A DNA stretch of 25,009 nucleotides. It comes from a virus. A program made the position numbers and the translations under genes. Positions within the stretch are counted from its first letter, which is position 1, and each line of letters starts with the position of its first letter. This document shows positions 5,731 to 18,032 of the stretch, piece after piece. The DNA lies in the IMG/VR virus record IMGVR_UViG_3300050821_017141, positions 1 through 25,009 of that record, one strand, 5' to 3'. Below the pieces are notes generated by a model that saw only the letters and a list, made by a program, of their open reading frames with translations, was not told the DNA's origin and searched no databases.

Positions 5731-6975
5731 TTATGCGACACGTTGAACTAATACGGAAATGTTTACAGTACCTGTACCCCAATCGGTGGTACCTCCCGAA
5801 TATACTGCATAAATAGGCGCACCTGCAACACTTGATGTGTTCATTGCAACCGTTCCGGCAATAGGATTGCCTGTTCCACCCCATAAAGTATTAATAGGTG
5901 TTCCAAGCAATGCTGCAGTGATACCTGCATTATTAAAGACAGTTGTTCCATCAGTAATCGTTACTAATCTATCACCACCGCCTGAAAAGCCTGAAGCGCT
6001 ATAATTTACGCGAATATCACGTACCTTATATTGTTTGGATCCACTGGAAGCTTGAATTGCAATGTGACCTGAAGTCGCAAGACCTGCAGCTGTTAAGGGA
6101 ACATCAATCCATACTAAATCTGAAATAGCATCAGGTGAAGTTAATGCAGAGGTTTGAACGTTATTAGCAGCGAATCCTGCATCCGCAACTAAACCTGCAG
6201 TGCCTGAAGCTTTAACCAGATTACCATTAACCAAAGCCGCTGGTGCTAAAACAAAATCAGCAGTTGCTCCAGCTGGATCAGGTACTGTGATAACAGATGC
6301 TTGACCCATTGCAGCATTTGTTAATGTGGTATTTGTATTGCCGGTATTTGCGGCTGCTAATAAAATTAAAGAACCTTTTGCAGCTGTTGTTGGGAATAAT
6401 TGAACTTGAGCATTATTTCCACCCGCAGCTGAACCCCCCACAAAATTTCCTAATGTGGCGGTAAAGTTACCGGTTGCAGCGGTAATACCAAAGCCTGTGG
6501 TAGTTGTCGTGCTTGGGTTTCCGATAGTTCCTGCAGTATCTAAAAATGCGGCTAAACCATTATTAGTAACAGCAGCGCTTGCCATAACTACTTTTGTTTT
6601 AGCAGGATTAGATGGTGAATAACCCGCATCTTTAATTTGTCCTGTCGTTCCATTAAAATTCGCAAAATCACCGGATACAACGGGCAATAAAACATTACCT
6701 GGGTTTTCCCACAAAACTAAAGTAAATCCAGTTGACGAAGAATAAGTTAATTGAAAAATTCCAAAAGTTCCTTGTTGATTAGCTTGGTTAAAGCTATAAA
6801 GAACTTCAAAAATGTCAGTTGGAAAAATTGGATTGCCTGAAGAATTTTGTCCGTTTAAATATCCAGCTGCTGTAATCGTTGCAAGATTATCAGTTGTAAT
6901 CATCGTATTTCTGCGTGGATTAACGGTTTGACCAACTAATCCTGTTACATTTACATTTATCGATAAAATACTCAT
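5731..6975 (-). CDS. Phage structural protein, probable tail/head fibre component
   Basis: 414-aa protein rich in Ala, Gly, Thr and Asn, low in Cys, beta-type. It has an internal repeat: FNGTTGQIKDAGYS (about 107-120) and ASGTAGLVADAGFA (about 256-269). The segment SLILLAAANTGNTNTTLTNA followed by ITVPDPAGATADFVL (about 202-242) matches a motif seen in fibre-like structural proteins of many podoviruses. The C-terminal part (about 285-414) looks like a globular beta domain ending in SVLVQRVA. AAAGGA precedes the ATG. It follows the 573-aa fibre gene in the same operon. Surface exposure and receptor or glycan binding are likely but not shown. Confidence 0.75.
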   Translation of the reverse strand: MSILSINVNVTGLVGQTVNPRRNTMITTDNLATITAAGYLNGQNSSGNPIFPTDIFEVLYSFNQANQQGTFGIFQLTYSSSTGFTLVLWENPGNVLLPVVSGDFANFNGTTGQIKDAGYSPSNPAKTKVVMASAAVTNNGLAAFLDTAGTIGNPSTTTTTGFGITAATGNFTATLGNFVGGSAAGGNNAQVQLFPTTAAKGSLILLAAANTGNTNTTLTNAAMGQASVITVPDPAGATADFVLAPAALVNGNLVKASGTAGLVADAGFAANNVQTSALTSPDAISDLVWIDVPLTAAGLATSGHIAIQASSGSKQYKVRDIRVNYSASGFSGGGDRLVTITDGTTVFNNAGITAALLGTPINTLWGGTGNPIAGTVAMNTSSVAGAPIYAVYSGGTTDWGTGTVNISVLVQRVA

Positions 6976-7008: not shown

Positions 7009-8730
7009 TTATCTTGCCCGTCTTCCTGCAATAAATCCAGTGGCTGCCATTGTAGATACACCAAAGCTTGACTGAGCGACAAGGTAAACGGTAGTTGTCC
7101 CAGATAAAGACAGTCTAATAGACGGTATCGGAAAAGCAGGATTTGCACCCGTTACAGTCCCAGTTCCTGCGCTAAATTCAGAATTAAAATTAGGATCGAG
7201 TGTTGCGCTTGTAGTGCTTGCACTTGCCAGAGCGTAGGTGACAGTTGTCGCACTGTTTGCGTTGAAAGAACAATAACCAGTAATATCCCAATCACCAGCA
7301 GTTAATGAAATAGAAACTACGTTTGATGGTGAGCCTGTTGAAAGAGATTGAGGAGTTAATTGTTGTGAATAAATATATTCACCGATATTTCCAGCGCTTC
7401 CGTTATCATTTGTTCGAGTACCTGGTATTTGACCGCCAGAGCTAATAGATGGAACACCTGAACTACTTGTGACAAGTACACCATAATTTGCGGTTGCTAA
7501 GGCAGCCATTGTATTTGCAGAACTCGCATAAAGTAATGTATTAATTGCATTAGTAGAAGGATAAGTGCTGGTTGACCAAGCGGGTGTTGCTGCATTTCCG
7601 GATAATAATAACTGTCCTGCAGTAGAAGTTCCTGACAAAATATTTAATTTAGTTGAATCAGACCAAAGAATACCGCCAGCGCTTGCTATTAATGCATTAT
7701 TAGTCCCGCCATTCGCTAAAGAGAGAGGTAATGATAATGCACTAGAATTATAATCTGCAAACCATGAAGCCGCTGTTGTACCTGAAGTTAAGATACATGT
7801 TACAAGTAAGGTAGTTCCCGCAGCCATTGCTTGAATGGTATTACCACCTGATGATTCAACAGTAACAACACCTGTTGAATTATTCGTAATGTAAAATGCT
7901 TGTCCTAATACTAGAGTTGATGTTACTGGAAGAAGAACAGTCTGCGTTGTCGTTCCTGTAAAAAATTGCTGATAAGCACTCGTCGCAACTAAAGTTGTTG
8001 TAGCTGCTGCGGTTGTTGTCGTCGCATAAGTTGATAAATTATTACTGACTGTAATAGTATTGCTACCATTAGCAACTTTAATGCCAGCACCTGGTGTAAT
8101 TGACCCCGCTGCAGGCTGAGTTGATGAACTACCAATAGCAAATTGTCCATCAGAAAGTGGAATGGAAATCATTGCGGAAACACCGCTAAATCCTAAAACA
8201 GAATTTGCTGTTGCTGAATATTGACCTACAACATTTGAACTTGAACCAAATAAAATATTACCAGAGGTAATAGTTGAGGGATAAGTTGCAGTTGTCCAAT
8301 TTGGTGCGCCCGCGCCACCTGACTGAAATAATTGTCCAGAGGTGCCAGGAGCCAATAAAGCAATAGCTGATGCAGTCGAATAAGGGATCGCACCATTTGA
8401 AGCTGTTAAATTAGCACCCGTTCCACCTTGTGACATTGGAATCGGAAAAGCAACACTACCTGATAATGTCCATACAGCTGTTGCAGCGTTTCCACTTGTC
8501 GTACAAACATAAAGAAGATGATTTGTTGTATCCCAACAAAATTGATAAACCACACCAGCAACCGATCCATTTGGATTACCTGCATTATTTAAAATAGTAT
8601 TTGCTAATAATAAGGATGCTACTTGTCCAAGTGTCTGTTGAACAGAGACTCCTGCTTGTACTGCTGCAATGATGTCAGCAAGTGTTGAGTTTGCAACCGT
8701 TGGTAATTGCGTAAATTTTTCATTGGCCAT
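7009..8730 (-). CDS. Probable tail fibre protein with GGTG/GGTN modules
   Basis: 573 aa from the ATG at 8730 (MANEKFTQLP). The upstream in-frame ATG at 8739 lies on the ribosome site itself (AAGGATG), while AAGGA sits 8 bases before 8730. Two long modules repeat: PMSQGGTGANLTASNGAIPYS ... GAPNWTTATYPSTI and SLANGGTNNALIASAGGILWS ... TPAWSTSTYPSTN, a pattern widespread in phage tail fibres. The N-terminus (FTQLPTVANSTLADIIAAVQ) is likely the virion attachment part. The C-terminal 130 residues (from about YIYSQQLTPQSLST) resemble a trimeric beta-sandwich head. Composition is strongly Ser/Thr/Ala. Likely role: receptor recognition. Confidence 0.82.
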   Translation of the reverse strand: MANEKFTQLPTVANSTLADIIAAVQAGVSVQQTLGQVASLLLANTILNNAGNPNGSVAGVVYQFCWDTTNHLLYVCTTSGNAATAVWTLSGSVAFPIPMSQGGTGANLTASNGAIPYSTASAIALLAPGTSGQLFQSGGAGAPNWTTATYPSTITSGNILFGSSSNVVGQYSATANSVLGFSGVSAMISIPLSDGQFAIGSSSTQPAAGSITPGAGIKVANGSNTITVSNNLSTYATTTTAAATTTLVATSAYQQFFTGTTTQTVLLPVTSTLVLGQAFYITNNSTGVVTVESSGGNTIQAMAAGTTLLVTCILTSGTTAASWFADYNSSALSLPLSLANGGTNNALIASAGGILWSDSTKLNILSGTSTAGQLLLSGNAATPAWSTSTYPSTNAINTLLYASSANTMAALATANYGVLVTSSSGVPSISSGGQIPGTRTNDNGSAGNIGEYIYSQQLTPQSLSTGSPSNVVSISLTAGDWDITGYCSFNANSATTVTYALASASTTSATLDPNFNSEFSAGTGTVTGANPAFPIPSIRLSLSGTTTVYLVAQSSFGVSTMAATGFIAGRRAR

Positions 8731-8753
8731 AACTAACATCCTTGTTAATTAAA

Positions 8754-8927
8754 TTAGCTTTCAGTAATTAAATTGTTTCCATCTTCCGTAATTAAATAAT
8801 TACTATCTTCAGTAATAAGATAGTTTGAAACAGGTGCAGGTTGACCTCCCGTAAATTGAACATTAAATAAGGGTGTCGTCAAAATATTAAAATTCATGCC
8901 AAACGTAAAATATTTACGGGATTGCAT
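8754..8927 (-). CDS. 57-aa tail-associated protein with LITED repeats
   Basis: Read from the gap between the 114-aa and 573-aa genes. The frame opens at ATG 8927, overlapping the end of the upstream gene by 14 bases, with AGGA about 10 bases upstream; ATG 8897 is an internal alternative without a site. The protein starts MQSRKYFTFGMNFNILTTPL and ends with three near-identical units, YLITEDSN, YLITEDGN and NLITES. The same repeat occurs in the gp10-like protein (positions 15830-16000). Its place between fibre genes suggests a small virion or fibre-linking protein. Length and coupling make it credible despite its size. Confidence 0.65.
   Translation of the reverse strand: MQSRKYFTFGMNFNILTTPLFNVQFTGGQPAPVSNYLITEDSNYLITEDGNNLITES
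8757..8822 (-). repeat. LITED(G/S)N peptide repeat, copy set A
   Basis: Three tandem 7-8-residue units at the C-terminus of the 57-aa protein. The DNA of the second unit matches the gp10-like gene near 15980 at about 21 of 24 bases, suggesting duplication or exchange between the two genes. Confidence 0.65.
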
Positions 8928-9258
8928 AAAATGATATTCCTACATCCTGACCACTTGCATTGTTGTTATAGCAACTAATTATATCACCCGCTTGTACATG
9001 TAATTGCGCGGGTGTTAAGACAGAAGTTGTTGCAGCAAAAGTAGCACCTGCCGGTTGTGCTGCAGTATTATTAATTGCGACCCAAATATCTGATCCGAAT
9101 TGATATTGAAAAACAATAATCCAATTTTGTGAAGAAGAAGGAACCGTCACCTCTTTATGTGCACCGGATGCAATTGTCGCTGAATAATTAATATCAGAAA
9201 TGACGGGAGCGTAAGCATTGAACCCTTGGACATCCCGACCAAAATTTAATTGCTTCAT
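8914..9258 (-). CDS. Hypothetical tail/virion protein, 114 aa
   Basis: Starts MKQLNFGRDVQGFNAYAP. ATG 9258 is preferred because AAGGA lies 7 bases upstream; the longer frame from TTG 9264 has poor spacing. It is a compact beta-type domain with WIIVFQYQFGSDIWVAINN and a C-terminal VGISFYAIP, without cysteine pairs or a membrane segment. It lies between the 625-aa collar-type protein and the 57-aa protein, overlapping the latter. Similar short beta proteins appear between fibre genes of podoviruses as accessory virion proteins. Function unknown. Confidence 0.7.
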   Translation of the reverse strand: MKQLNFGRDVQGFNAYAPVISDINYSATIASGAHKEVTVPSSSQNWIIVFQYQFGSDIWVAINNTAAQPAGATFAATTSVLTPAQLHVQAGDIISCYNNNASGQDVGISFYAIP

Positions 9259-9274
9259 AATCAATTCCTTTTGA

Positions 9275-15616: not shown

Positions 15617-17329
15617 TTATTGTCTTATATTGACAACCCCATCCGTTACCACAAAACGCCCTACACCATAAAAACGGAATTGACAAACTAAATCATTCGC
15701 CCATCCCAATTGCCACCATGCGAGCTTATATTTCCTTTGCCCAATAGGAGGTAAAGTTTGAGAATCGTAACTGCTGAAATGTTCGCCACCATCGATCGAA
15801 ATAGATAAATCCACATGCGGTAATTCATTTACAATATCTCCCTGCTCTGCAATCAGATAAAAGAAATCGGTTGAATCGGTTTGCTCTGAAACAAGAAAAT
15901 CACCACTTTCAGTCGTTAACAGGTTTCCGTTTTCCGTTTCAAAGAAGACGACATTTCCTTCGGTAATATAACGGTTTCCGTCTTCGGTTATTAAATACAA
16001 ATCACCGCGACTAACAGGTAAATAATTCGTTTCACCTGTTTCAATGGTGAAACCGCAATCATTCGCTATAAAAGCTTCCTGTTGGGGATTTCTGATATTT
16101 TTACATGTTCTAATGCGCGGAATTTCATGTCCATCGTATGTTGTAAAAATGGTATCAAATGCATATAAATTGCCATTATTTTTACTGACGAAATAATATT
16201 GATTATTGAAGAAGGCTACTTCAGCTGCAATGAAGTAATTGCCAAATTCATCGCACGCGTGATAAATCTTTTGTGTTCCATTAGGTAAGAAATCAATGAA
16301 AAATGATAAGTTATCGGAATAGAAATTTATGTGATAAAAAAGATGTCCGTCTTGTCTGTACATGAAAGCTTGGGAATCTTGCGGGTTTTGAAGGTTTGAC
16401 AAAACATATTCAAAACCATCCGTCGTTACCTGTGCAGGCATTCCACCTTCAGAATAAAAAACAATTGGCCCTGTTTTTTCGTTGATTCCAAGCCATACAA
16501 CTATTTCATCATTCGATGCTATCGTTGCAGGATTAATACAACCATAATCTACGTTAAAAGATGTATTTCTTTGATATGGGAATAATTGATAACCCACATC
16601 AAACCAAGGCTCGGTTACGGTATGCCCCATTACAACGATCATATTTCCTTTACTTGGAAATCTTAATACGGCTTGTGTGTTATCAGGCTTTGTTTGAAGT
16701 AAACCAATATGTGCCGCATCATCAGGCCATTGTAAACCATCATCCTGATTAGACAGACGCCACGTATTATTAGCAGCAGGTGAATAAAAACCATCAGCGC
16801 GTGCTGCACATAAAAAATAGGTATCATGAAAATCAATAAACCCAGGTATAAAATTAATAGGGTTTGTTCCATCGCGTGTTGCAATAGAAAATGATGCAAC
16901 ACCCATCGGAGGATTAGGATCATAAATATAAATTGAAACGCCATCCGAAAAAGCAATTTGCGGTTTGTTATTTTCTGAAATATAAACAACGCCTGTTGTC
17001 GTTTGTAATTCGCCAATTTTGATTGCCTGATAACTTGAAACAATCGCCCGTCTTTGATCAAAATTAATTGAAATCAAAAAAACATCACTACCAAATACTG
17101 CGATTAATTTTCCTAATTTAGTGCTGGTATGACATCCGCGTCCTTCGACATTATTTCCTAATTGATTTGCAGGGATTGCAATTTGATAACCGGCATAAGG
17201 CACCATCCAGTTATCCGACATAAACATATTATAAGTTTTTTCAATCGATATCTTAGGATAGCGACCAAATGTTGAAGAGCCTACTATGTTAAGCAATTCA
17301 GGTTTTGTTGTTTGAGACCTGTTAATCAT
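15617..17329 (-). CDS. P22 gp10-like packaged-DNA stabilisation / tail protein
   Basis: 570 aa (P22 gp10 has 472). The N-terminus SSTFGRYPKISIEKTYNMFM corresponds to the start typical of gp10 (a Y/P..S...N.Y.E..), followed by beta-propeller-like strands (GKLIAVFGSDVFLI, PQIAFSDGVSIYIYD). The C-terminus has the family ending: DLSISIDGGEHFSSYDSQTL, IGQRKYKLAWWQLGWA and VCQFRFYGVGRFVV. Between GFTIETGE and PHVDLSIS lies an inserted block of LITEDGN-type repeats (about residues 444-500). In P22, gp10 forms a hexameric plug of the tail between gp4 and the needle. One base separates it from the gp4-like gene. Confidence 0.85.
   Translation of the reverse strand: MINRSQTTKPELLNIVGSSTFGRYPKISIEKTYNMFMSDNWMVPYAGYQIAIPANQLGNNVEGRGCHTSTKLGKLIAVFGSDVFLISINFDQRRAIVSSYQAIKIGELQTTTGVVYISENNKPQIAFSDGVSIYIYDPNPPMGVASFSIATRDGTNPINFIPGFIDFHDTYFLCAARADGFYSPAANNTWRLSNQDDGLQWPDDAAHIGLLQTKPDNTQAVLRFPSKGNMIVVMGHTVTEPWFDVGYQLFPYQRNTSFNVDYGCINPATIASNDEIVVWLGINEKTGPIVFYSEGGMPAQVTTDGFEYVLSNLQNPQDSQAFMYRQDGHLFYHINFYSDNLSFFIDFLPNGTQKIYHACDEFGNYFIAAEVAFFNNQYYFVSKNNGNLYAFDTIFTTYDGHEIPRIRTCKNIRNPQQEAFIANDCGFTIETGETNYLPVSRGDLYLITEDGNRYITEGNVVFFETENGNLLTTESGDFLVSEQTDSTDFFYLIAEQGDIVNELPHVDLSISIDGGEHFSSYDSQTLPPIGQRKYKLAWWQLGWANDLVCQFRFYGVGRFVVTDGVVNIRQ
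15830..16000 (-). repeat. LITEDG-type peptide repeat inserted in gp10 homologue
   Basis: About six imperfect units: DLYLITEDGN, RYITEGN, VVFFETENGN, LLTTESGD, FLVSEQTD and FYLIAEQGD. They interrupt the otherwise recognisable C-terminal domain of the gp10-like protein. The consensus is [YF]LITE(D/S/N)G[ND]. The repeat is shared with the 57-aa gene at 8754-8927. Confidence 0.7.
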
Positions 17330-17330
17330 A

Positions 17331-18032
17331 TTAAGGTCTCCAACCGTGGCCTACATTCACATCCCCGAAATTCACGCCGCTTACGGTAGTGAGAATTGAA
17401 GTCTTTCTGACACTTAAATCAGGAGGCATAACATCCATTAATTGCCGTTCAATCATTTTCAGAATTTTTAATGATTCTGGATTCATTAAAATGCCATACT
17501 CAGAACACATATATTGAGCTAATGCATAGCGCAAATATTCTAAGTAGGATGGGTCATAAATAGTTAAAAGATCGGTATCAAGCGTTACATTCTGTAAACC
17601 AAATTTACCCATTATTTTTATTGGATAGGGGCCAGCAGGATAAAAATAAAGATAAATGGTTCCACCACCTAATGATCGGTTGAAGTACCAATTCGAGGGT
17701 AAGCTTGCAATATTATCAATACGACCTGTACCAAAATATGCAGTACGGGTTGTGTAATCGGTAGGATAACGAACGTCGCCAATGTTAAATGTTAATGATT
17801 CAACGCCCACCAAATTTGGAATGAAATAGGTTTCAACCCCAGGTGTCGCAATAAATTCGTAATAAGTCCAGTACGGAATTAAATCGATCTGAATGCTTTT
17901 CCAAGAAAGCAAAGCATTCAGCAAAAAAAGGCCATCCGTACCTTGGTCACCCACCACCGATTGAAGGCGGCGGGCTACAATTCCGGATAAATACCATGAG
18001 CGATCAACCAGCTGCCTTGCTGTATAAGACAT
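17331..18032 (-). CDS. P22 gp4-like head-completion / tail accessory protein
   Basis: 233 aa (P22 gp4 has 166). The N-terminal pattern ARQLVDRSWYLSGIVARR, then GTDGLFLLNALLSWKSIQID, then VETYFIPNLVGVESLTFNIG, matches the P22_Tail-4 family: a helix, an LL..LL..W helix, then G.e.y.ip...g...i...g. The rest, with YLEYLRYALAQYMCSEYGI and LKILKMIERQL, also fits. In P22, gp4 binds the portal after packaging and is the first tail adaptor. A GGGGAG site lies 9 bases upstream. Located between the 256-aa virion gene and the gp10-like gene, as expected. Confidence 0.83.
   Translation of the reverse strand: MSYTARQLVDRSWYLSGIVARRLQSVVGDQGTDGLFLLNALLSWKSIQIDLIPYWTYYEFIATPGVETYFIPNLVGVESLTFNIGDVRYPTDYTTRTAYFGTGRIDNIASLPSNWYFNRSLGGGTIYLYFYPAGPYPIKIMGKFGLQNVTLDTDLLTIYDPSYLEYLRYALAQYMCSEYGILMNPESLKILKMIERQLMDVMPPDLSVRKTSILTTVSGVNFGDVNVGHGWRP

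Follow-up and report, generated by a model that had tools for sequence, protein, structure and literature searches.

An eight-residue repeat counted in threes in the tail hub and in a small protein beside the fibre gene of a short-tailed phage

The window, a 25 kb stretch of DNA (25,009 nucleotides) from an IMG/VR virus record, bears a short-tailed-phage structural module on its minus strand. The gene at 15617–17329 (minus strand) encodes a gp10-type tail hub or packaged-DNA stabilisation protein of 570 amino acids, which in a profile search matched PHROG 578 (head closure Hc3) with an E-value of 8.1e-29 over residues 102–457. By its AlphaFold2 model, built from 65 sequences (pLDDT 89.1, pTM 0.84), the hub has the fold of P22 gp10: Foldseek gave a value of 1e-21 against P22 gp10, and VIA aligned 448 residues with 8eap_D (Z 34.4, rmsd 2.5), with further fold matches to 9vyg_M (Z 33.5), 7sg7_S (Z 32.1) and 7eeq_1 (Z 30.9). 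The input to VIA-align was the hub only, and the resulting fold list says little about the repeat block described below. When the whole hub was compared with PDB sequences, 7eeq alone was returned, with an E-value of 0.19. The whole fold is common to the hubs of P22, Sf6, Pam1 and Pan3 (PHROG 578; nozzle proteins of the T7 gp12 type), but these chains are shorter than that of the window, with about 471 amino acids in P22 and Sf6 and about 442–445 in Pam1 and Pan3. In the Rhodoferax phage P26218, unlike in the window hub, the loop at the repeat site is short.

The repeat block occupies hub residues 436–500 (15830–16024, minus strand) and is an insertion in the C-terminal beta domain, flanked by the strands GFTIE.G and DLSIS.DGG. 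It consists of six units of eight residues, all on the minus strand, with the general pattern Y/F-L-I-T-E/Q-D-G-N: unit 1, YLITEDGN (15974–15997, key residue Glu449); unit 2, RYITEGNV (15950–15973, Glu457); unit 3, FFETENGN (15923–15946, Glu466); unit 4, LLTTESGD (15899–15922, Glu474); unit 5, FLVSEQTD (15875–15898, Glu482); and unit 6, YLIAEQGD (15836–15859, Glu495). The six conserved Glu residues are spaced 8, 9, 8, 8 and 13 residues apart. The original prediction of about six YLITEDGN-like units in a gp10 homologue is borne out by this parsing; it placed the block correctly, at 15830–16000, and made it slightly too short. A synthetic six-unit consensus scored 16.3 bits against the Pfam octapeptide repeat PF03373, below the gathering cut-off of 17.5, and no Pfam family of the octapeptide-solenoid kind came above its cut-off. 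The same consensus matched Pfam UL11 (23.9 vs. a cut-off of 21.4, with no stretch passing) and came near the cut-off of the flagellar protein FlgE, and both matches were put down to chance, the query being an artificial repeat. A sequence search found no relatives of a three-unit set (hereafter, triplet) in the PDB.

In the AlphaFold2 model, the block follows the propeller and lies in the C-terminal (platform) beta domain, where its pLDDT deciles range from 72 to 87 and every unit shows a short bridge pair. Its DSSP string consists of short strands, which fit a solenoid or other short-strand arrangements alike. For L003, an all-Gln relative with nine units whose extra triplet was modelled with pLDDT below 50, a search of the fragment against known structures gave no match at E ≤ 0.001 and no solenoid. 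Of the beta-helical surface loop that had been proposed for the block, the strand-rich surface loop is therefore compatible with the model, whereas the solenoid geometry is unproven.

The second repeat-bearing gene of the window encodes a protein of 57 amino acids (8754–8927, minus strand) and has homologues at the same place in relatives. The protein ends in three units, NYLITEDS, NYLITEDG and NNLITES, as had been claimed for its C-terminus, and this C-terminal triplet (NYLITEDSNYLITEDGNNLITES) is encoded at 8757–8825 (minus strand). The start of the gene overlaps the 3' end of a conserved gene for 116 amino acids (8914–9264, minus strand), which serves as a synteny anchor, and 14 bases past its stop begins the gene for a fibre-type protein (7009–8739, minus strand; PHROG 11393, tail fibre) with the N-terminus MANEKFTQLP, an N-terminal class that is paired with ITE-type small proteins. 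No noteworthy promoter or terminator was detected near this gene. Both proteins had been called virion proteins; for gp10 this is supported by PHROG 578 and by the fold, whereas the 57-amino-acid protein matches no family in Pfam, PHROGs or NCBIfam at E ≤ 0.1 and is assigned to the tail region by its neighbours only.

The likeness between the peptides of the small gene and the hub units is far beyond that found in shuffled open reading frames. With a unit matrix derived from gp10 blocks, the small gene scores 40.9, only 2 of 27,840 shuffled frames reached two chained units at a score of at least 16, and the top score in a first shuffled run was 23.5. At the DNA level, the two YLITEDGN units share 21 of 24 bases, the figure given in the original prediction, and the three mismatches are all synonymous. 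However, two copies of the same peptide drawn from the codon usage of the window are expected to share 19.8 of 24 bases on average, with 21 or more in 33% of draws (P 0.33). The DNA match is thus at the level expected from the peptide and provides no evidence of recent exchange. Repeats are by nature able to recombine, and exchange or slippage could act between as well as within the two genes. Yet similarity outside the Glu/Gln position of the units is 0.272 within a protein and 0.256 between units of different index in different proteins, which led us to reject homogenisation of the units, and it is highest, at 0.433, between units of the same index, which suggests that the units are old and keep their places. 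The repeat-driven exchange that had been offered as one explanation is therefore very improbable.

In hub relatives, the insert is optional and has been gained and lost three units at a time. With the hub protein as query, a scan of IMG/VR returned 77 loci (designated here by L numbers), which with the loci of later scans amount to 168 hub relatives at E ≤ 1e-40; in 148 of the 168 the block was parsed between its flanking strands, yielding 84 distinct sequences. The lengths of these 84 fall into classes of 36–40 (n = 5), 61–65 (n = 9), 70–75 (n = 3), 89–97 (n = 66) and 128 (n = 1) residues with nothing between, which we read as 0, 3, 3, 6, and 9 units, respectively. The block is absent or shorter in some gp10 relatives, rather than being part of all gp10 proteins, and its copy number varies among them between 0, 3, 6 and 9 units, both of which agree with the original prediction of an inserted block. 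A tree was built from 65 non-redundant hubs with the block left out, and L060 and L105 were counted on it as six-unit hubs by length alone. This tree requires at least 12 changes of length class, and its strongly supported branches force at least six changes each of the six-unit and the three-unit class. Therefore, steps of three happened repeatedly. L060 and L105, together with L074 and L086, are unparsed in the non-redundant block listing, and the first two were omitted from the Glu/Gln analysis described below. At the block site, the L111 hub has units of an LLL type, and the hub of L060 (L060:10001–11749) has an unrelated glycine-rich insert (GSGYTTATLMFVGGNGSGATATATITSG...) exactly at the repeat site, indicating that the site takes different modules. 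Between hubs that are at least 75% identical elsewhere, identity is 0.79 outside and 0.54 within the block.

The fifth position of the units follows a rule of its own. We compared 48 non-redundant six-unit hubs, in which a scoring rule set the unit positions, in a few cases loosely (L044, L018). With a single exception, the parsed units have either Glu or Gln here, and uniform proteins make up 39 of the 48. Concordance within a protein is 0.924, vs. 0.563 after permutation of columns, and none of 2000 permutations reached the observed value. When six independent units were simulated on the tree, the mean concordance was 0.676 and no run out of 1000 reached that observed; the number of uniform proteins averaged 12.2, with 38 in the highest run, for these 48 hubs and one tree. 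The z-score of the Glu/Gln position is 21.8, compared with −0.4 to 4.3 at the other offsets of the unit. General Glu/Gln composition was rejected as the cause, since Glu/(Glu+Gln) outside the block is 0.355 in both Glu- and Gln-type hubs. Swapping of whole blocks was likewise rejected, because nearest neighbours chosen by the masked block give the right Glu/Gln type in 38/48 hubs, no more often than those chosen by the remaining sequence (38/48). The coherence is clear, although the independent events are few: paired independent switches of unit 1 number only three on strongly supported branches and eight on the full tree. With signals of neither unit homogenisation nor block swapping, gene conversion and block swapping do not explain the coherence well, whereas a shared physical constraint does. 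Among the 48 hubs, units 1 and 4 never disagree, units 2 and 5 disagree in seven and units 3 and 6 in five. A simple stack of 1 on 4, 2 on 5 and 3 on 6 would not predict the latter two sets of disagreements, and such a stack is not proven.

The units recur in other, unrelated tail proteins, mostly in threes. A strict regular expression for the repeat found only three open reading frames. The scan that reached unrelated contigs used six Glu-type small proteins as queries and required two adjacent units, so the resulting survey is biased. Distant gp10 hubs (profile E-values of 6e-27 to 4e-37) carry triplets at the same site before a WSDDGG strand in L140, L145, L149, L158, L160, L164, L168, L247 and others. 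Further triplets were found in a protein of about 900 amino acids (L134, L138 and others), at the C-terminus of a 702-amino-acid tail protein (L133, PHROG 6616), in a 228-amino-acid frame matching the end of PHROG tail families (L167), twice in a 427-amino-acid protein (L146), and at the C-termini of small proteins (L139, L150, L155, L159 and L249), of which those in L139, L155 and L249 are encoded before fibre-like genes. Outside the hub clade, 33 of 43 distinct Glu-type peptides chain three units. Two were counted with four units (a hub fragment of L221, and L158 with one extra loose match), and eight were counted with two, of which one is the small protein of L127, which has three units, and the rest look like chance. 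In this unit-chain survey, 85 chains from shuffled frames passed the threshold compared with 343 real ones, and the two-unit and weak L-type rows are unreliable. Phage matches H66 and H67 were read as flagellar hook-like proteins. In L153, a distant gp10 hub is directly followed by a gene (L153:4558–5418) with a triplet of its own (GDYLQTENGDYFITEASDYLLAD), and the corresponding gene in L149, L152 and L156 is without one. L153 is a second case of two tail-region proteins with a common module.

In relatives of the window phage, the small gene at the same place ends in a triplet of another kind, FLLLDGxNFLLLDGxxFLLL (LLL-type). A rule-based tally covered 149 loci that have the anchor gene upstream. 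Partial de-duplication left 95 rows, with some contigs present twice, and the rule overlooked small genes visible by eye in L114, L050, L065 and L100. Among the 95 rows, ITE-type small genes have a MAxxKF fibre in 7/7 cases and LLL-type small genes an MSKNI fibre in 48/48 classified cases (three more have no recognised fibre), none of the 16 loci with a MAIEEMF fibre has a small gene in front of it, and in the remaining 21 rows the rule detects no small gene. In the loci that were read, the small gene adjoins the fibre gene. With respect to the hub, ITE-type small genes occur with a Glu hub in 5/5 classified loci, and by eye also in L105, whereas LLL-type small genes occur with Glu (8), Gln (11) and mixed (5) hubs. 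The single Gln/Gln case, L114, was found by eye and has YQDDN in both the hub and the small protein. L159 has a Glu-type triplet in its small gene and a hub without the block, and L001 has a hub block and no small gene. By this tally, the type of the small protein goes more closely with the fibre N-terminus than with gp10. Hubs also differ between fibre classes, with a Gln-type block in 12/12 MAIEEMF-fibre loci with a classified hub (e.g., L020, L023, L024 and L029) and Glu-type hubs in 7/8 classified MAxxKF-fibre loci, an association that may be due to shared ancestry.

We class the block as a module inserted into tail hub proteins, and its counting in threes, the Glu/Gln rule and its wide reuse are real in this sample. 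Our favoured reading, to which we give even chances, is that the underlying element is a portable triplet of eight-residue beta strands, carried once, twice or three times by phage virion proteins, with two triplets in the loop of this hub. One triplet would probably make up one turn of a small, three-sided beta-solenoid, in which the Glu or Gln side chains of all strands could come together in one ladder or cluster; a solenoid turn with such a ladder would account for the counting in threes as well as for the all-or-none change of residue. The module might protrude from the hub near the junction of adaptor and fibre and serve in docking or stiffening for proteins of the fibre region, and the 57-amino-acid protein would then belong to the fibre cassette as an accessory built with this module too. 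In SU10, the platform domain of the nozzle protein touches the adaptor, and the long fibres are held by dock domains of this adaptor; the nozzle comprises platform and propeller domains, a fibre dock loop and inserted nozzle domains that bind fibres (PMC9509320). The adaptor gene of the window lies at 17331–18032. The hub of the window is likewise decorated by an insert, and from the fold match the block appears to lie in the domain equivalent to the SU10 platform, a position that would suit a docking or stiffening element near the fibres. The block might instead be an adhesive surface that binds a host receptor under diversifying selection, as its faster divergence than the rest of the hub and the other insert at the same site in L060 would suggest. 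However, the strict spacing of the units, their counting in threes and the Glu/Gln rule speak for a structural constraint, and a separate fibre gene is present, making this decidedly unlikely.

Other explanations concern what connects the two genes of the window. The triplet of the small protein may serve the fibre, as an adaptor or cap at its N-terminus, and its likeness to gp10 would then reflect common descent or convergence of one module. The agreement of types in every classified case, together with the MAIEEMF loci that have no small gene and the triplet-ended small genes before fibre-like genes in L139, L155 and L249, argues for such a role. However, neighbouring genes are inherited together, which suffices for the link between small gene and fibre and needs no contact, and the tally ignores relatedness and counts some contigs twice; we regard this role as possible but hold it only tentatively. 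The common binding partner that had been suggested for the two proteins may exist, and direct contact of the small protein with the hub is only one option; its tightest link is to the adjacent fibre. In its strongest form, the triplet of the 57-amino-acid protein would add a further turn to a two-triplet solenoid in gp10, so that hub and small protein bind through matching repeats. A precedent of this kind can be found in Podospora, in which HET-S has two repeats, NWD2 has one, and NWD2 templates HET-S. HET-s/HET-S and NWD2 are products of two genes with a common short repeat that adopts a beta-solenoid fold (PMC4344463). That system is one of fungal prion signalling with another sequence, whereas here two phage genes lie about 6.7 kb apart. 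Stacking of the HET-s type could be a working analogue of the triplet. Such stacking fits the presence of exactly one triplet in the small protein and two in the hub, and an agreement in residue class that is Glu/Glu in the window, L014, L127, L032, L033 and (by eye) L105, and Gln/Gln in L114. This agreement rests on about four lineages only, though, most small proteins are of the LLLDG type and occur with Glu and Gln hubs alike, L159 combines a Glu-type small protein with a hub that lacks the block, and hubs with the block and without a small gene are common. We therefore consider stacking between the two proteins unlikely. Quite unlikely, too, is an extension of the portable-triplet reading in which triplets act as an assembly code, hub, small adaptor and fibre each having a stackable single-turn solenoid, with the Glu/Gln ladder as a compatibility mark that switches together, possibly in the partners too.

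Ice-nucleation proteins and other octapeptide beta-solenoids have a period of eight residues formed by a strand plus a turn. They contain dozens of copies, whereas the phage module has three. Tail hub proteins with insertions are already known; a module counted in threes, common to unrelated tail proteins and with an all-Glu or all-Gln rule was not found described in Pfam, PHROGs, NCBIfam or the literature searched. If the solenoid reading of the triplet is true, the module would be a minimal natural building block, with about 24 residues to a turn, and a clear natural experiment on side-chain ladders, in which individually diverged strands have to switch a single residue in concert. The module would also provide a sequence handle on small, unannotated genes directly before fibre genes.

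A Sulfuricurvum MAG contig, L127 (JAQTOQ010000025.1), has a 75% identical hub along with its ITE-type small gene, which is a weak hint at a campylobacterial host. The window gene at 5731–6975 lies downstream of the fibre gene, as do its counterparts in L014 and L001, and in many relatives its homologue is found upstream of gp10. It is 90% identical to that of L014, although the hubs of the window and L014 are only about 76% identical.
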